A stretch of 64,000 nt of DNA. Origin: a bacterium (GTDB lineage: Bacteria > Cyanobacteriota > Vampirovibrionia > Obscuribacterales > Obscuribacteraceae). A model generated the notes under the pieces. It worked only from the letters and a program-made list of their open reading frames with translations, was not told the origin of the DNA and made no database searches. The stretch lies in assembly GCA_018062085.1 (NCBI GenBank), contig JAGOSY010000007.1, positions 62,001 through 126,000 on the forward strand. Reading direction: 5' to 3'. Each line of letters opens with the position of its first letter. Position 1 is the first letter of the stretch. The translations under genes and the position numbers were made by a program. This document shows, piece by piece, positions 878 through 10,255 of the stretch.

Positions 878-1819
878 TTAGAATTTGTACAGGTCTTTCA
901 AGGCTTGCCGCAGTTGGCTGACTGAGAGCCACCTAGCTTCTCTTTCTTTTTCAAGGCATTTCATAATGATGTCGTTCAATTCTTGCGAGACCAAGCCATC
1001 ACCTTTGCCGATAGGGAGAGTGACTGGCTTTTCATAGAGGTGCATGGCAAAAGTATGGACAGCGCTTTCACCTTTAAATGGTGGCTCGCCCTTGAGCATT
1101 TCGTAGTACATGCAACCGAGTGAATAGATGTCTGAGCGCTGATCTACTTCTTGGCCTTTGCATTGTTCGGGGCTCATATAAAGCGGGCTGCCAAAGACAA
1201 ACCCGGGCTGGGTTAGCTCAGCTGGTTTCTTGTCGTGACGGGCGCTGCACTTAGCTATGCCAAAATCAAGCAGTTTGACATGCTGCGAATAAGGCCCGGG
1301 ATAAGACTTGTCATCATCGCTTAGCTCGTCAATTACCATGACATTGCTTGGCTTGATATCGCGGTGCACGATGCCCCGTTCGTGGGCAAATTGCAAACCT
1401 TCAATTACTCCAGCGACGAGGCGATAAGCGAGATTTTCTGAAAGCTTATAACGCTGATCGAGAATATCATCGAGACCATAACCGGAGAGGTGTTCGAGCA
1501 CAAGATAGGGCACGGGATCAGCGCCCGGTCGAAACTGCGGGGCGAGACCCTCTGTTTGATTGGAGAGAAGGCCGAACGAATACATATGGACAATATTGGG
1601 ATGATTCAAATGATTGATAATGGCCGCCTCGCGCTTGAAGCGTTCACGGCTCTCGTCGGTGTCTGAATAATCGGAGTGCAGAACTTTGACGGCTACAGGA
1701 AAGCCCGCTGTCTCATGGTGCCCTTTGTAGACTGTGCTAAGTCCGCCCCGTCCAATCACGCTTTCAAGCTTGAAGCGCTTTTCGAGTACAGCGCCCACTA
1801 GCTTGTCGCCGCTTTCCAT
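878..1819 (-). CDS. Soluble Ser/Thr protein kinase (PknB/Hanks type)
   Basis: A complete kinase domain fills the ~313 residues: glycine loop IGRGGLSTVY, VAVKVL with the ATP-binding Lys, catalytic loop HRDIKPSN, metal-binding DFGIAK, and GSPLYMSPEQ in the activation segment. There is no membrane segment or sensor domain, unlike the other three kinases in this window. I start at the ATG at 1819, which has an AAGG site just upstream; a TTG at 1849 would overlap the preceding gene. It is the last gene of a minus-strand run with TadE/TadG-like genes, so it may be co-transcribed with them and act on that surface system, but this is inference. Substrates cannot be read from sequence. Confidence 0.93.
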   Translation of the reverse strand: MESGDKLVGAVLEKRFKLESVIGRGGLSTVYKGHHETAGFPVAVKVLHSDYSDTDESRERFKREAAIINHLNHPNIVHMYSFGLLSNQTEGLAPQFRPGADPVPYLVLEHLSGYGLDDILDQRYKLSENLAYRLVAGVIEGLQFAHERGIVHRDIKPSNVMVIDELSDDDKSYPGPYSQHVKLLDFGIAKCSARHDKKPAELTQPGFVFGSPLYMSPEQCKGQEVDQRSDIYSLGCMYYEMLKGEPPFKGESAVHTFAMHLYEKPVTLPIGKGDGLVSQELNDIIMKCLEKEREARWLSVSQLRQALKDLYKF

Positions 1820-1830
1820 TGTTATAAGCC

Positions 1831-2352
1831 TTATCTGTTCTTGAGCCAAGTAATGTTCACTTTTGTTCCTTTGCTAACAGGATCTAGCATGCAAAAGACC
1901 TTGATTCCTTGCTTCTCTTTCTCGCCATCGAGCATCAAGAATTGACCTTGCTTGCCCAGTTTGGCAATTAACTTTGGCGAGGCAACATTGAGGGTCCAAC
2001 CTGCTCCTCTTAACTTTGTCTGATACCACTGAAATACAGTTTCTAGGGGGTCTTTTGTGGTTATGCCGACTGTTGCCGTGGGGGACCCTTTAGTCGAATT
2101 GATAAAACTGGTGCTAACAACATTACTAGTGTATGGTGGCACGGGGAAGTTAATGGGAATTTGCGAGCTGATATTGACGTGAGCAGCTGCCAAAACAGAG
2201 TCATATTTTTGTTTGGCGATTTTGAGGTTTTGAGCAGCAGTAGCTGGGTCTGACTTCGGTTTGTCCTGGGCTAAGGCTTTAGCTGTTGTTGCTAACTCTA
2301 ATAGCAACAGGCCTGCGGCAGCTATTAAAATTGTGATTGATTTGGGCTTCAA
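1831..2352 (-). CDS. Secreted hypothetical protein in the Tad-like cluster
   Basis: About 173 residues with an N-terminal signal peptide (KPKSITILIAAAGLLLLE, likely cut after an AKALA-type site). The mature part has a QNLKIAKQKYDSVL helix and a compact domain containing TKDPLETVFQWYQTKLRGAGW, a pattern typical of small periplasmic domains that handle a pseudo-substrate difference between two states. I recognise no named family. The start is the TTG at 2352 because an AAGGAAG ribosome site lies just before it and the preceding gene stops at 2367; any longer reading would overlap that gene by over 100 bp. Position between the TadG-like gene and the kinase suggests one operon. Confidence 0.7.
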   Translation of the reverse strand: MKPKSITILIAAAGLLLLELATTAKALAQDKPKSDPATAAQNLKIAKQKYDSVLAAAHVNISSQIPINFPVPPYTSNVVSTSFINSTKGSPTATVGITTKDPLETVFQWYQTKLRGAGWTLNVASPKLIAKLGKQGQFLMLDGEKEKQGIKVFCMLDPVSKGTKVNITWLKNR

Positions 2353-2366
2353 TGTAGTCTTCCTTT

Positions 2367-4067
2367 TTAGAACGGATTGCAGACACCGACCGTGTGAACT
2401 TCGCTCCAGCGCTTCACTCTGATGTCGCCGAGGGAACCATTGAAGCCCGTGCCGGGCTTCCAGTATACGTCTTTGTCCCATAGTACCCAGCTCCAGTTTG
2501 CGCCCGGAGTGGGTGAACAGAAGATTACTGGAGTTGGTACGTGGGGCAGCGGTATGCCCCCTGGCATGAAGGCATCGTCAATAATCTTGGTTTCGTTACC
2601 GTCTGGGGTGTTGTTAATTATGGCTGGCATCCACAATGGTGCCAAAATCTGGGCTAGATTCTTAGGCTGACACTCAAGTGTTTCGCCATCTCTGCTAAAT
2701 AAGTAAAAGTCTTTCTCGCCAGCAATCAGCCAGGCTCTTGTTAATGCAGATCCTAAGACCGAGTGCAGCTTTGCCGGTGTAATTGTGACACCAGGTTTAC
2801 TGAGCATTTCGTTGGCGCGATTGACCATATAGCCTTCAACTTTAGCGGTGTCGCCTGGCGGCGGTCCAAATATAACTTCATCTAATGACCGTCCGACAAT
2901 GTCTAGACCGATCATTTGTGCTGGTGGACTAACCAGGGTGCATAGCACCCCACCCCCTGGCATGGGCGTGCCGGTCATGCTTTTCGGTGAGTCATTAAAG
3001 TCATAGGTTTGAGGGGCGCCAAATTCAACTTTGAATGGCGGCAGTGGATAGAAATACCAGTGACATTTCATTTCATCAACTTTGATGTGCAAAAACGAAT
3101 GTGGTGCCGCTAGTTTGTAGGGGTGTCGGGGGTTGCTCAAGACCCAAGACATTGCTGTCTCGGCTGTAGCACCAGGGTTCTTCGCTTCGGCATCGACTGA
3201 AAAGGCGTTAGGAATTGGCTTTGCCCAAGTAATTGGAATGGCACTCTGTTTAGCGGCATTGAATGTGGTGCCTGATACCAGGTGGGGTTTGTCGTCCCAC
3301 TTGAAGGGCACTTGCCAGAATTTGCGATCGAGCACATCGATTGGCGTGTAACCTTTCAAGAAATAAGTGTTTGCAACGGCGCCTGGTAACGGTGTTCTAG
3401 TGCATTTTGTACTGCTGCCGGCCGGTAGGCTATAACCTGGAGGTAGGTAGAAATTGTCAGAAGGAGAACCTGTCAATTCTATGTTGCTTTCTGCGTCTCT
3501 ATCCATTAATGATGTTTGCCAGCCTGGACCCGGGCGCACCTGTGCACTTGAATTAACGCCAATCATTCTTGTTGAGTTTTTAGTCGAAATATCGGTGAAG
3601 AATCCATGTAGGTTGGTGGCGGTAGTTAGTTTGTCGGCTAGGGCGTCGCTCAAATCTTGAGCTGCGCCGGCAGCACTGCTAGCATTGCCCACACCGTTAC
3701 CAGCATTGCCATCCATACTTGCCGCTCTCGCATTAATCGCCATGAGCATGGCTTTAGACCAAACCCGGTTAATTCTATTGAGATTGACTTTGCCATCACC
3801 AATTATGTTGTTGTTGAATGAGTCATTGGTGCAGTCGAAGAAACATTTCTGGTTGTCTGCTAGAGATAGCGTCACGCTTGGTTCGTGTAGCGCTTCTTTG
3901 CCAACACTTAAGGCACCAGCATCTGTGGCGTTTTTGGTTTCTCTTTGGCCGCCCATGTATAGGCAGATGATGATAAAGCCGATTCCAAGCACCATGAGTG
4001 TTAACGCTAGTACTGCAGCAAAGGCTGTAACTGAGCCTCGTTTGCCTCGTCTCTCCACTGTGCTCAT
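2367..4067 (-). CDS. TadG-like pseudopilin/pilus-assembly membrane protein
   Basis: 566 residues. The N-terminus, RRGKRGSVTAFAAVLALTLMVLG, is a short basic stretch followed by one long hydrophobic segment, the arrangement of the putative Flp pilus-assembly TadE/G-like family. The remaining ~520 residues are predicted to be outside the membrane and are rich in Pro, Gly and Asn. It lies directly downstream of two TadE-like genes in the same orientation. Tad systems build adhesive Flp pili, but no TadA ATPase, prepilin peptidase or secretin is in the window, so only the minor-pilin part of such a system is visible. The start ATG follows an AAGG-type site. Confidence 0.75.
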   Translation of the reverse strand: MSTVERRGKRGSVTAFAAVLALTLMVLGIGFIIICLYMGGQRETKNATDAGALSVGKEALHEPSVTLSLADNQKCFFDCTNDSFNNNIIGDGKVNLNRINRVWSKAMLMAINARAASMDGNAGNGVGNASSAAGAAQDLSDALADKLTTATNLHGFFTDISTKNSTRMIGVNSSAQVRPGPGWQTSLMDRDAESNIELTGSPSDNFYLPPGYSLPAGSSTKCTRTPLPGAVANTYFLKGYTPIDVLDRKFWQVPFKWDDKPHLVSGTTFNAAKQSAIPITWAKPIPNAFSVDAEAKNPGATAETAMSWVLSNPRHPYKLAAPHSFLHIKVDEMKCHWYFYPLPPFKVEFGAPQTYDFNDSPKSMTGTPMPGGGVLCTLVSPPAQMIGLDIVGRSLDEVIFGPPPGDTAKVEGYMVNRANEMLSKPGVTITPAKLHSVLGSALTRAWLIAGEKDFYLFSRDGETLECQPKNLAQILAPLWMPAIINNTPDGNETKIIDDAFMPGGIPLPHVPTPVIFCSPTPGANWSWVLWDKDVYWKPGTGFNGSLGDIRVKRWSEVHTVGVCNPF

Positions 4068-4104: not shown

Positions 4105-4506
4105 TTACTGTGGTATCTCGGAGCCGACGATTGGCTCTACATCGCCGGCCTTAAATTTGTAGCCGGCGAAGCCTGGAACCGGTACTGGTAATTTAACTTC
4201 CATTATTGTTACTACCGTCACTGAGCCAACACCTTTGGCCGGATAGTCAAATTCACTGATTTCAAGACTTTTTACGATGGCTGATGCCTGAAAGCTTGCC
4301 AATGCTTTCAGTGCCGCGGCGTGGGCGGCAGCGCCAGTAGGTTGGTTGGCTGCCGCTCTGGCTGCGTTTTTTGCAGCAGTATCGTTCATTGAATTGGCGA
4401 TAATCATGACCGTTAAGTCAAGGAGAAAAAGAGCGATAGGAACTAAAATTGTTGCGGCCAGAATGGCTTCTATTAGGCCACTTCCGCGCTTCGCTCTGTT
4501 TCTCAT
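4105..4506 (-). CDS. TadE-like minor pseudopilin
   Basis: About 133 residues. The N-terminus RNRAKRGSGLIEAILAATILVPIALFLLDL has the basic stretch, a Gly before a Glu-containing hydrophobic helix, and the length of TadE-type pseudopilins. The rest is a small extracytoplasmic domain with the segment AAKNAARAAANQPTGAAAHAAA. I chose the ATG at 4506 because it has an AGGAGA site about 8 bp upstream; the upstream ATG at 4551 overlaps the previous gene and has a weak site. It sits between another TadE-like gene and the TadG-like gene. Confidence 0.75.
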   Translation of the reverse strand: MRNRAKRGSGLIEAILAATILVPIALFLLDLTVMIIANSMNDTAAKNAARAAANQPTGAAAHAAALKALASFQASAIVKSLEISEFDYPAKGVGSVTVVTIMEVKLPVPVPGFAGYKFKAGDVEPIVGSEIPQ

Positions 4507-4540
4507 TGCCGGTTTTTTCTCCTGCGTCTCTACTGGCCTT

Positions 4541-5032
4541 TTATGGTGCATAGTCTGGGTTTTCCATTTGGCGCTCTGAGCTAAGTTGGATAGTCATTGG
4601 GCCGTTGAGCCCAGGCACGTTCAAGACAGGCAATGGAATTGTTAGAAAAGGACTACCAACCACAGTGGTTCTTACCATGACAATGCGGTCTGTTACTTTA
4701 TCCGGGCCGGTTTGTCCGTCGCGATAGAAAATCTCAGTCTGGGGATAGCCTTGTACCTTCACTAGGTGTCCCATCCCCGCTAACCATTGGTCGGGAATGC
4801 CTTTGCGTACGACCCCGGCTGGATTTTCAGTGTCAATTTTCTGAAGCAGCGAAGCTTCATGTACTTGGTTGTAGTTGAGAACCATACAAAGGCCGTAGGA
4901 GACAAGCACTGCAAGCATGTCTAAGAGGGGAAAGAAGAAGCAAATTAATAGTATGCTCAGGGCCGGGGCAAATTCAACTATTGAATTGCCGTGCGCCCGG
5001 CGTGTCTGTTTTTTTAGTCTGAGCTTGTTCAT
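4541..5032 (-). CDS. TadE-like minor pseudopilin
   Basis: About 163 residues. A basic N-terminus (NKLRLKKQTRRAHGNS) leads into IVEFAPALSILLICFFFPLLDMLAVLVS, a TadE-like Gly-x-x-x-V-E-F junction with one membrane helix; the C-terminal ~100 residues are extracytoplasmic. It is the first gene of the five-gene minus-strand run and faces away from the KTML-repeat gene, with 150 bp between them that presumably hold both promoters. An upstream GTG at 5050 is possible, but the ATG at 5032 has a purine-rich AGAGAGAGAGA just before it. Confidence 0.72.
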   Translation of the reverse strand: MNKLRLKKQTRRAHGNSIVEFAPALSILLICFFFPLLDMLAVLVSYGLCMVLNYNQVHEASLLQKIDTENPAGVVRKGIPDQWLAGMGHLVKVQGYPQTEIFYRDGQTGPDKVTDRIVMVRTTVVGSPFLTIPLPVLNVPGLNGPMTIQLSSERQMENPDYAP

Positions 5033-5185
5033 TCTCTCTCTCTGCTTCACAGGCCGGGCATCTCTTGATGTGGCGCATACCTAATATACGCAGTGTCTGC
5101 AAATTTTAGAGGGCGGCGAGATTAGAATTTTGGATTACGGTATTATGGTTGTCGGTAGTGCTAGGTTGGGCAAAAGGCTCTAATC

Positions 5186-6529
5186 ATGACTGAAGATTCC
5201 GCAGACGAACCGACTCAAGATTCTGGCTCTAAGCCGCAGCCTGCCACGGGTGAAAAGCCTAGAAGAGTGCCAAAGACCATGCTCTTTGATGTTCCTACGG
5301 CCGAAGCTATTGAGGCCTATGCCGCAGCGGCTGCCTCACAACACCACGACGCACCAGCAAGCACTAGTGAAGACGCAATTAATACTGAGAAAGTTCTTCC
5401 TGTTGATAGTCAACCAGTCAGTGCTGAGGAGCTTGAGAAAAAAAGGCAAGTGGCGCAAAAACAATCGGCCAGACGGGTTGCCAAGACCCTCCTCTTTGGT
5501 GAGATCAATCTTGATGCTGTCAAACAAGCCGCTCAAGCTGCTTCTGTTGAGGCTAATCTAATCTCTGTTGAGGCGCAGCCTGCTGCTCCCGTGAGTGTTC
5601 CTCGTGAGAAAAGAGTGCGGAAAATTGCTAAGACTCTGCAAGAGTCTGCACTTGGGAGCTTTGGCCAAGAACAGTTGCATCCGGCCCCGGCAGAAGTTGA
5701 GTCGACTCATATATCTCGGCCAGAGGCTCTGTCCGAAGCGGTGCCAGAAGCTTTAACGGATGGGAGTGTCAAGCCTAAGCGGCAGCACTTTGTGGCCAAA
5801 ACTATGCTTGACCACAGTATTTTGTGGGATACCGTTTCTAAGTTCGAAGCAAAAATGGAAGAGCGGGTGGCCGAGCAGATGCTCGAACGTGCTAACGAGC
5901 CAATCAAGCCATTTATTCCAATTGTCTGTAAAAAACAGGCTACTCCTTGTGCCTTCACCTGGGACGACCCCGATACCAGAGAACGCTTTCGCTATTGCGA
6001 CCTTTGCAAGACGCCGGTTTATAACTTTACTGGTCTGGAACAGCCAGAGGCAGACGAGTTGATTTTTCAGCGGGAAAATCGCCGCAATGCCACGCTTTAC
6101 AAGCGCGCCGACGGTAAGTATATGACTGTCAATTGCCCTGTGGAAGTGAAGCGTAAGCGAGACATGGTGTTCATGTCTTTGGGCGGTGTTCTCTTATTTG
6201 CCGCTGCTATTGCTTTTATGATTTGGATGCCTCGCCCGCCCAAGCCTGAGCCTAAAGCTGTGGTTGAGGACAGGCCTGCCGCCGTAACTACCGGTTCGAG
6301 CACAAGTACTGGTCCTCGGCAGCCAAGTCCACCGCCGGCCGGTAGTGATGATGGCTCCTTCCGTATGGTCAATGGACAGCGGGTTTATCCTGCTGGGTCT
6401 AGTCCAGGACCTAGTGCTGGAACTGCACCTGTCAATTTTCCACCGCCAGTGCAAGCCCCTGCTGCTACTACCGATGCCGATGAAAGTGGCCAGTTCTGGC
6501 AATACGATAGCCCGCCGGGTCAGCGCTAG
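5186..6529 (+). CDS. Membrane-anchored protein with four repeated K-T-[ML]-L motifs and a Cys-rich region
   Basis: 447 residues, no named family recognised. The N-terminal half is acidic and Ala/Glu-rich and carries four copies of a basic/hydrophobic-x-K-T-[ML]-L motif with Thr at about residues 31, 101, 150 and 206 (RRVPKTMLF, RRVAKTLLF, KIAKTLQE, FVAKTMLD). Then come Cys pairs, including CDLC, suggesting a zinc-binding region at about 248-320, one membrane helix (VFMSLGGVLLFAAAIAFMIWM) and a Pro/Ser/Gly-rich tail. The basic-x-x-x-K-T pattern in otherwise disordered sequence looks like repeated phosphorylation or docking sites. A stand-alone FHA gene, whose product should bind phosphothreonine, converges on it 35 bp away, and a kinase gene lies about 3.4 kb upstream. 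The link is inference. Confidence 0.72.
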   Translation: MTEDSADEPTQDSGSKPQPATGEKPRRVPKTMLFDVPTAEAIEAYAAAAASQHHDAPASTSEDAINTEKVLPVDSQPVSAEELEKKRQVAQKQSARRVAKTLLFGEINLDAVKQAAQAASVEANLISVEAQPAAPVSVPREKRVRKIAKTLQESALGSFGQEQLHPAPAEVESTHISRPEALSEAVPEALTDGSVKPKRQHFVAKTMLDHSILWDTVSKFEAKMEERVAEQMLERANEPIKPFIPIVCKKQATPCAFTWDDPDTRERFRYCDLCKTPVYNFTGLEQPEADELIFQRENRRNATLYKRADGKYMTVNCPVEVKRKRDMVFMSLGGVLLFAAAIAFMIWMPRPPKPEPKAVVEDRPAAVTTGSSTSTGPRQPSPPPAGSDDGSFRMVNGQRVYPAGSSPGPSAGTAPVNFPPPVQAPAATTDADESGQFWQYDSPPGQR

Positions 6530-6564
6530 CTAGCGCTGACCGATCCCTTTTACCAATTGTGACT

Positions 6565-6873
6565 TTATTCGATGCGGAAGGTCGTGCGACCAATCTTGAT
6601 AATGTCATTAGGCGCCAACTGATAGGGAGTTGAAATCAACTTGTCGTTAACGGTTGTGCCATTGCTGCTCATCAAATCTTCTAACCACCAGCGGCCTTGA
6701 TCCCAATAAATCTTGGCATGATCAGCTGAAGCATAACCATCTTCTGGCAAGATTACTTGGTTTTCTGGGGCACGGCCTAAGTTTATGGTCGGTCCTGACA
6801 ATGTATAACTTTCGTTGGTCGTCAAGTTTAAGAGTACCGGGAGGCGGCCTGCTTGAGGAGGATTTGATGACAT
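6565..6873 (-). CDS. Stand-alone FHA domain protein
   Basis: 102 residues, essentially one FHA domain and nothing else. The signature is complete: INLGRAPENQVILP, then SADHAKIYWDQGRWWLEDLMSSNGTTVN, supplying the Gly-Arg, Ser/His and Asn-Gly-Thr positions of the phosphothreonine pocket. FHA domains bind phosphothreonine peptides made by Hanks-type kinases. As a single-domain cytoplasmic protein it would act as an adaptor. It converges with the KTML-repeat gene, and four Ser/Thr kinases are encoded in the window. The start ATG has an AGGA site about 9 bp upstream. Confidence 0.9.
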   Translation of the reverse strand: MSSNPPQAGRLPVLLNLTTNESYTLSGPTINLGRAPENQVILPEDGYASADHAKIYWDQGRWWLEDLMSSNGTTVNDKLISTPYQLAPNDIIKIGRTTFRIE

Positions 6874-8296: not shown

Positions 8297-10255
8297 TTAC
8301 TCTTGCATGAGCTTCTCTGTGGCAATGGTGTCGGCTTTGGCAAATATTGCTTTTGATTCTTGTGCCTTGCCTGTCTGCGCCAAGTAGCAGGCATAACTGT
8401 TTAGAGCTTGGTAAAGCAAAGTTTTGTCGTTAGCAAAAGAACCTTCTGCTAAATTCATTGCTTCTTTTAGCTCTTTCTCAGCGTCTTCATATCGATTCTC
8501 GTCGCGATCGAGCTGGCCGAGTTTTATTAGAGCCAAGACTCTTTTTCTGCCATTTTTATTGTTGTTGATGATGTTATTGTTGTTGGCCGCTTTTACGTAG
8601 ATAGACAGTGCCTCTGCCAGTAGTGGCCGCATCATCGGTAGTCTCTGTTGGCGGTTGTAACATTCAGCTAACAGCATGTCGATACCGGCAACTTGCGGGC
8701 TATCATTACCGAGCAAGTTAATGTAAACAGTACGGGCCTTGGTGAGCAGGGTCTCTGTATGCTTATCCATGGCGGCTCCGGCGAGGCCGCGATTGACATG
8801 GTCAATAGTAGTAAAAGTAATCGGGGCAAGAATTCGCTTCATGCCTGTTTGTGATTCGCTACCGGGCTTAGCCAGATCGTCTAACTCTTTGAGAAGAGTG
8901 TCGTAGGCTTCAAGCAAAACCTGACTATTGAGTGTGGCAATCTTTTCATTGACTACCTGCAACTCGTCAAACATTTTTGCTTTAGAAAAAAGAGTGCGCT
9001 CCATACGCAACGCCGTCATCAAGCGGCCGCGATTTGAAAATTTAGTACGGGCCGTATTTTCAGCTGATGTTAAAACCCAGTGTGCTTGGTCGTACAGATG
9101 GAGGTCTGTAAGAGTTTGAGCAATTGTGGTTTGGCTGTTCCAAATTGTCTTTAGGAGCACTGTGCCGTGGTCTGGCTCTGGTCCGTTATCGCAGGACATG
9201 TAAGCAAATACAGCAGCAACAAAGACAAATAGAGTCCAGAAGGCATAACGTAAGTATTTGATTTCTAGGCGCTGCTTGGTTGGATGTTGCACTGCTTTGA
9301 CTTTGACAGAGCCTGATTGAGGTTGAATAGTCGGTAAGTCTTGCAGTACTTCAGTTATAGACTGGTAGCGGTTTTCGGGCAGCTTTTCTAAGCAGCGGAA
9401 GATTAGAGCCTCCATACTTTTATTGATATTTAGTTCTGGCACCACCTCGCTAAACGATCGGGGCGTTTGGCTGACGTGCATGGTCATAGTGTCGTAGGCG
9501 GTATCGCCCCGCAGCGGTGCAACTCCTGCGAGTGACTCATACATTAGACAACCAAGTGAATAAATATCAGAGCGATTGTCTAGGGACTTAGCCTGGCATT
9601 GCTCTGGGCTCATATATAGCGGGCTGCCAAAGATATCCCCGGTTTGGGTTAGTCTGGTTTGTTCTTTGGCGGCGTGAGGGAGCACCTTGGCGATGCCGAA
9701 GTCGACAATTTTGACTAGCTCAGAGCCGTCTTCGCCCTTAATCAAAACCAGATTGCTGGGCTTTAAGTCGCGGTGCAAAATGCCATTTTTATGGGCATGT
9801 TCTAAGCCCATACAAGTTTGGCGAAAGATGTGTACCGCTCTGTCGAGGGCTAGGTGGCCTATCTCATCGAGCACTTCACTGAGGTTCTTGCCATCCAGGC
9901 AGTCCATTACTAGGTACGCTTGGGAGCCGACGATACCAAAGTCGTAAATACTTATGATGTTTTGGTGCTTTAGGGCGCTAGACGCTTTTGCTTCGTGTTT
10001 AAAGCGTTCAATGGCTACTTTGTCTGAGTCGTCGTGCAAAAGTTTAATAGCAACGATGCGATCCATGAGACGATGGCGTGCTTTGTAAACTACGCTCATG
10101 CCCCCAGTTCCGAGCACCGAGATAATTTCATACTGATCGGCAAAGACTTGGCCGATCATAGGATCCGCTTGCTCTAGTTCTAGTTCGTGACCATCGACCG
10201 GGCACTTTGACCAGAGCGTTTCAAAGCGAGCATCGCATTTAGGGCAGAATTTCAA
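8297..10255 (-). CDS. Ser/Thr protein kinase with N-terminal zinc ribbon, membrane helix and TPR-like C-terminus
   Basis: 652 residues. Residues 1-25 form a zinc ribbon (CPKCDARFETLWSKCPVDG). The kinase domain runs from about 35 to 300: LGTGGMSVVYKARH, IVAIKLL, HRDLKPSN, DFGIAKV, GSPLYMSPEQC. A single membrane helix is at about 330-355. The C-terminal ~290 residues are helical with TPR-like repeats (YEDAEKELKEAMNLAEG, TLLYQALNSYACYLAQTGK), probably outside the cytoplasm, where they would sense a peptide or protein. A TTG start at 10255 with AAGGA 6 bp upstream fits. It appears monocistronic. In this family the kinase often sits behind a surface sensor, but the signal is unknown. Confidence 0.92.
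   Translation of the reverse strand: MKFCPKCDARFETLWSKCPVDGHELELEQADPMIGQVFADQYEIISVLGTGGMSVVYKARHRLMDRIVAIKLLHDDSDKVAIERFKHEAKASSALKHQNIISIYDFGIVGSQAYLVMDCLDGKNLSEVLDEIGHLALDRAVHIFRQTCMGLEHAHKNGILHRDLKPSNLVLIKGEDGSELVKIVDFGIAKVLPHAAKEQTRLTQTGDIFGSPLYMSPEQCQAKSLDNRSDIYSLGCLMYESLAGVAPLRGDTAYDTMTMHVSQTPRSFSEVVPELNINKSMEALIFRCLEKLPENRYQSITEVLQDLPTIQPQSGSVKVKAVQHPTKQRLEIKYLRYAFWTLFVFVAAVFAYMSCDNGPEPDHGTVLLKTIWNSQTTIAQTLTDLHLYDQAHWVLTSAENTARTKFSNRGRLMTALRMERTLFSKAKMFDELQVVNEKIATLNSQVLLEAYDTLLKELDDLAKPGSESQTGMKRILAPITFTTIDHVNRGLAGAAMDKHTETLLTKARTVYINLLGNDSPQVAGIDMLLAECYNRQQRLPMMRPLLAEALSIYVKAANNNNIINNNKNGRKRVLALIKLGQLDRDENRYEDAEKELKEAMNLAEGSFANDKTLLYQALNSYACYLAQTGKAQESKAIFAKADTIATEKLMQE

Follow-up and report, generated by a model that had tools for sequence, protein, structure and literature searches.

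The window, which is the whole 64-kb stretch of DNA that was analysed, lies on contig 56 of a 5.83-Mb genome (G000) and encodes a membrane protein of 447 amino acids (5186..6529, forward strand), recognised from its open reading frame, its homologues and an AlphaFold2 model. From the N- to the C-terminus, the protein consists of a tail with threonine motifs (the motif tail), a cysteine-containing domain (the Cys domain), a KRKR stretch, one membrane helix and a proline-rich tail. It matched no family in Pfam, and a Foldseek comparison of the AlphaFold2 model with the PDB gave no meaningful match. The pLDDT was below 50 across much of residues 1–204, and the motif tail is predicted to be disordered. 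The Cys domain and the membrane helix were modelled with a pLDDT of about 80–97. The helix is predicted from the sequence at about residues 325–347 (6158..6226, forward strand) and falls within residues 318–347 in the model. Since the KRKR stretch precedes this helix, the positive-inside rule would place the motif tail in the cytoplasm, with the protein crossing the membrane once.

The Cys domain (about residues 250–320; 5933..6145, forward strand) was evident from both the homologues and the model. Four of its cysteines (C255, C271, C274 and C317) were invariant among the homologues, and the domain possibly binds a metal. It had no match in Pfam or the PDB. Its pattern, C..C...VYN...NCP, was common to at least seven other proteins of the same genome (L002–L008). 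These paralogues did not carry the threonine motif and were set aside.

The motif tail contained four copies of a repeated [VI][AP]KT[ML]L-type motif, all of them recognisable in the sequence and the four nearest homologues. Motif 1 (VPKTMLF; 5267..5287) is centred on Thr31, motif 2 (VAKTLLF; 5477..5497) on Thr101, motif 3 (IAKTLQE; 5624..5644) on Thr150 and the terminal motif 4 (VAKTMLD; 5792..5812) on Thr206, all on the forward strand. The original prediction had placed Thr residues at about 31, 101, 150 and 206, which proved exact. It had also described four K-T-[ML]-L motifs; this holds for three copies, whereas the third reads K-T-L-Q, with IAKTLME as its counterpart in two near homologues. 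In the terminal motif, T206, D209 and H210 were invariant in 19 homologues. Synonymous sites differed among the DNA of the four copies, which excludes a recent DNA duplication; therefore, selection acts on the protein. A search of the genome with a degenerate DNA pattern found no other array proteins: outside the membrane-protein gene there were just single matches, in unrelated open reading frames or with no matching frame.

Across the homologues, the full consensus was R-[KR]-[VI]-A-K-T-[ML]-L-[DEF], with R at −5, K or R at −4, V or I at −3, A at −2, K at −1, M or L at +1, L at +2 and, at +3, D or E and more rarely F. A pattern drawn from the same protein family matched in full 137 times in a non-redundant set of 67 homologues and paralogues, whereas shuffled sequences gave 0.2 matches on average. 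The Thr column of these matches contained 137 T, 0 S and 0 D, although the tails were richer in Ser (9.0%) than in Thr (5.9%); part of this Thr-only column reflects shared ancestry. With the looser pattern [KR]x[ML][LMI][DEF], one Ser was found among 136, and the bare four-residue pattern [VI][APS][KR]x gave 148 Thr and 15 Ser. When the four nearest homologues were aligned, the invariant columns made up 25 of 28 in the motifs but only 35 of 182 in the linkers. This alignment agrees with the earlier expectation that the Thr and its flanking residues would be conserved and the linkers variable. A terminal T-x-[LIM]-D site was retained even in most of the diverged paralogues. This near-invariant terminal T-x-L-D site, the Cys domain and the TadE/TadG-like neighbours described below had no part in the original prediction.

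Facing the membrane-protein gene was a gene for an FHA-only protein of 102 amino acids (6565..6873, reverse strand), the proposed phosphothreonine (pThr) reader. Its PF00498 match of 64.6 bits was well above the cut-off of 20.7. As had been noted from the sequence, the gene ends 35 bp from the membrane-protein gene, the two stops being convergent. The first set of loci included 15 with an FHA gene, which was convergent and 5–117 bp downstream in every case; the arrangement was repeated in the named loci of the second set. The residues of the pThr pocket (G33, R34, S49, H52 and N71) were invariant in 15 FHA orthologues. FHA domains select pThr over pSer via a pocket for the methyl group of Thr (PMC3146460), a selectivity that would fit the near absence of Ser at the motif. 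The FHA protein carries no other domain and may act as an adaptor or cap.

On the other side of the membrane-protein gene, a run of genes on the reverse strand was conserved in position. The divergent neighbour (4541..5050) encodes a small membrane protein that is conserved in position and sequence, is called TadE-like by resemblance and did not reach the Pfam threshold for TadE. It was followed by a second TadE-like small membrane protein (4105..4551; PF07811, 17.8 bits, below the cut-off of 22.9), a TadG-like protein (2367..4067; PF13400, 15.2 bits, below the cut-off of 22.3) and a protein at the end of the run, p1831 (1831..2481, start uncertain), which matched no family in Pfam. The order p1831, TadG-like, TadE-like and divergent TadE-like gene, then membrane-protein gene and convergent FHA gene, recurred widely. 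The neighbours fell below the cut-offs for PF07811 and PF13400, and their homologues were weaker or unmatched; we use "TadE/TadG-like" as a description based on matches below the threshold and on how the N-terminal segments look, not as a statement of membership. Elsewhere in the genome, two loci (on contigs 68 and 70) had a T2SSE-type ATPase near a sub-threshold Flp-type match, so Tad-type machinery may be present there.

The distribution of the two genes was assessed in 60 relatives, in 292 genomes drawn from the phylum and by a single peptide pattern run against the collection of named genomes. When FHA orthologues were required to reach E < 1e-40 (the next best match was at about 7e-27) and membrane proteins E < 1e-30, 17 of the 60 genomes had both genes, 42 had neither, none had the FHA gene only and one (G028) had the membrane protein only. 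The membrane protein of G028 (L025), without an FHA gene, kept one motif. A related genome, G025, had an FHA orthologue on a contig with no membrane-protein match. The search of the 292 phylum genomes gave no match outside the genome of the window itself. Among the named records, nearly all homologues were from Candidatus Obscuribacterales/Melainabacteria or were labelled Cyanobacteria, with the exception of a few records of "uncultured bacterium" and one labelled "Proteobacteria".

Array size differed with the presence of the FHA gene. Proteins with an FHA gene within 8 kb had 2–6 motifs (mean 4.5, n = 26), whereas those without one had 0–3 (mean 0.6, n = 21), most of them 0 or 1 (Mann-Whitney p = 3e-9, uncorrected for kinship, which inflates the significance). 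One protein with three motifs and no near FHA gene (L019) shares its genome with an FHA-linked copy (L036), which lies some 5 kb away, outside the short stretch covered for L019. In a tree built from the Cys-domain region, presence or absence of the FHA gene could be explained with 5 changes, against 14.8 when the labels were shuffled. Four phylogenetically independent pairs were available, of which three went in the predicted direction, none against it and one was neutral, an underpowered comparison (sign test, p = 0.25). Three loci that adjoin TadE/TadG-like genes and have no FHA gene (L060, L071 and L075) had 1–2 motifs; thus, the FHA gene, and not the pilin-like genes, predicts array size. 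The idea was to be refuted, as stated at the outset, by homologues that had lost the Thr but still carried the FHA gene; these were looked for and no such case was found. Because the linkers have drifted around a conserved Thr and conserved flanking residues, and because the FHA gene and the array co-occur and shrink together, the substrate-reader half of the proposed circuit is strongly supported at the level of sequence.

The four Ser/Thr kinases said to be encoded in the window were confirmed as four Pkinase matches. Two of them, both on the reverse strand, are Hanks-type kinases and candidate writers: one at 878..1849 (PF00069, 172.3 bits) and one with a TPR region at 8297..10255 (PF00069, 181.2 bits). 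Their proximity was rejected as evidence for linkage, since with 104 Pkinase matches in the genome (about 1.1 expected per 64 kb) it is expected by chance. The 104 Hanks-type kinase matches in 5.83 Mb stood beside just five FHA matches. In the expanded relative G025, at least 10 of 20 paralogues of the membrane protein had a Ser/Thr kinase gene no more than 1.5 kb away, compared with 0.9 expected (p = 5e-9). These kinase-linked paralogues mostly had the terminal site alone and no FHA neighbour. In expanded relatives of this type, most of the paralogue-adjacent kinases examined were fusions of a receiver domain and a kinase; four fusions near paralogues were confirmed with Pfam, and a pattern scan flagged six in the locus set. 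Receiver-domain/Ser-Thr kinase fusions were seen at L081, L084, L085, L087, L090, L091 and L092, several of them directly beside membrane-protein paralogues. The kinase (writer) half of the putative circuit is supported only indirectly, with a statistically clear association seen just among the expanded paralogues of G025. Of the circuit as first proposed, in which a kinase writes on the motifs and the FHA protein reads them, the motif-FHA half stood on conservation and co-occurrence, while the link to the kinases at 878 and 8297 was weak, their position being conserved in the three nearest relatives only.

We consider it likely that the locus encodes a multi-site phosphothreonine docking switch, in which Hanks-type kinases would write on a membrane-anchored tail and the FHA protein would read it. 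The membrane protein would anchor a disordered cytoplasmic tail with several copies of the consensus, and one or more Hanks kinases would phosphorylate the motif Thr. The small, convergently encoded FHA protein would then bind the phosphorylated sites, and the count of marked sites would set the amount of FHA protein held at the membrane. Phosphorylation, binding, topology, the identity of the writer kinase and the output are the parts of this model that we infer.

The alternative that survives best, which we regard as unlikely, is that the Thr sites are kinase substrates whose phosphorylation acts on the tail itself, while the FHA protein reads something else, such as an autophosphorylated kinase; the Thr-only column would then stem from Thr-selective kinases. 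Read from their sequences, both kinases near the locus carry Ile at DFG+1, a residue typical of Thr-selective kinases (PMC3898841). This residue suits the docking switch as well, but as it favours a Thr acceptor, the absence of Ser need not imply a reader. In addition, the terminal Thr is still kept in paralogues without an FHA neighbour. However, in the activation loop of several paralogue-adjacent kinases, DFG+1 is Leu (likewise read from the sequences), the residue expected of Ser-selective or non-selective kinases, and Thr is nonetheless kept there. The dependence of array size on the FHA gene rather than on the pilin genes, and the almost perfect co-occurrence of the two genes, also speak against this alternative.

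It is improbable that the motif works independently of phosphorylation, as a helix N-cap or as a docking peptide for another partner, with the FHA gene a mere conserved neighbour. A T-x-x-D/E sequence resembles a capping box, and in the AlphaFold2 model a predicted helix starts near residue 210, directly after the last motif. Capping boxes, however, accept Ser and Asp, neither of which occurs among the 137 Thr of the motif column, and the Phe found at +3 in 17 motif copies does not suit a capping box. A plain neighbour relation also fails to explain why array size follows FHA presence. Chance is a very remote explanation: with 104 kinase matches and five FHA genes in the genome, four similar motifs could have ended up beside an FHA gene unrelated to them, but the conserved adjacency, the co-occurrence and a motif conservation far above that of shuffled sequence contradict this.

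For the docking switch, the residue at +3, a mixture of D, E and F, does not settle how the FHA domain would read the motif. In our alignment, the FHA protein of the window presumably has Tyr at the position equivalent to Arg83 of Rad53, and Rad53-like reading of Asp at +3 was not supported. In published work on other FHA domains (PMC4037201), the preference of Rad53 FHA1 for Asp at +3 depends on Arg83, and RNF8 accepts Tyr or Phe.

Several known systems resemble parts of the proposed switch. In mycobacteria, PknB phosphorylates MviN, and the FHA domain of FhaA (Rv0020c/TB39.8) reads pThr on the cytoplasmic part of this membrane protein. The likeness lies in the reading of pThr on a membrane protein by an FHA domain, and the FHA of TB39.8 was among the nearest solved sequences to that of the window; FhaA, however, carries an additional domain at its N-terminus and targets one site only, beside a pseudokinase domain, whereas the window locus shows no pseudokinase domain. 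In eukaryotes, several Thr sites in a disordered tail are read by FHA domains in Rad9/Rad53 and MDC1, but with a different motif and without homology between the scaffolds. The closest working analogy is the type VI secretion system (T6SS) pathway of Agrobacterium tumefaciens (PpkA, TssL pThr14 and Fha), in which an inner-membrane protein is phosphorylated on a Thr by a Hanks kinase, the FHA protein binds this pThr and an envelope machine assembles (PMC3953482). This is a likeness and not pathway membership: the T6SS pathway has one Thr site instead of an array, and the locus differs from it in its stand-alone FHA domain and in a membrane protein without a Pfam family. No T6SS genes were recognised among the annotated neighbours of the locus. 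The best solved-sequence match to the FHA family of the window was ArnA of Sulfolobus (5a8i, E = 4.1e-14), with similarity in the FHA domain only. ArnA and ArnB regulate the archaellum, a surface appendage described as under the control of a kinase and an FHA protein (PMC12852372).

Our best guess for the output of the switch, a tentative one, is control of a surface appendage through the assembly or secretion of the TadE/TadG-like proteins. A broader and rather doubtful proposal is a lineage-specific phospho-code. Here, the surface system with the TadE/TadG-like proteins would be controlled by a dedicated multi-pThr membrane scaffold and a stand-alone FHA reader. The scaffold would have expanded in some lineages to about 20 paralogues, half of them beside Ser/Thr kinases, including receiver-domain Hanks kinases that would turn two-component signals into pThr marks belonging to this one motif family.

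Other FHA genes were also observed. In G025, FHA matches lay in open frames of 17,447 aa (contig C138:42474-55610) and 3,950 aa (contig C126:6433-9261), corresponding to giant proteins with several FHA domains. At L040, genes for a PP2C-like phosphatase, a zinc-ribbon-FHA protein and a Ser/Thr kinase were arranged head to tail (phosphatase and zinc ribbon assigned by eye), and L042:1408-2388 combined an FHA domain with an apparent nucleotide cyclase domain (by eye) in one open reading frame.

To our knowledge, evolved multi-site pThr arrays with a dedicated FHA reader are scarce in bacteria. Within the collection of papers searched, none mentioned both "Obscuribacter" and "FHA". The sequence data point to a previously undescribed multi-site phosphorylation switch in an uncultured, non-photosynthetic relative of the cyanobacteria. 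The case offers a sharp consensus peptide, a reader of 102 amino acids and natural variation between 1 and 6 sites, which makes the proposed mark and its reader accessible to work with peptides only. The host organisms have about 100 Hanks kinases and few known substrates, and the receiver-kinase fusions give a handle on how two-component and Ser/Thr signalling might join.
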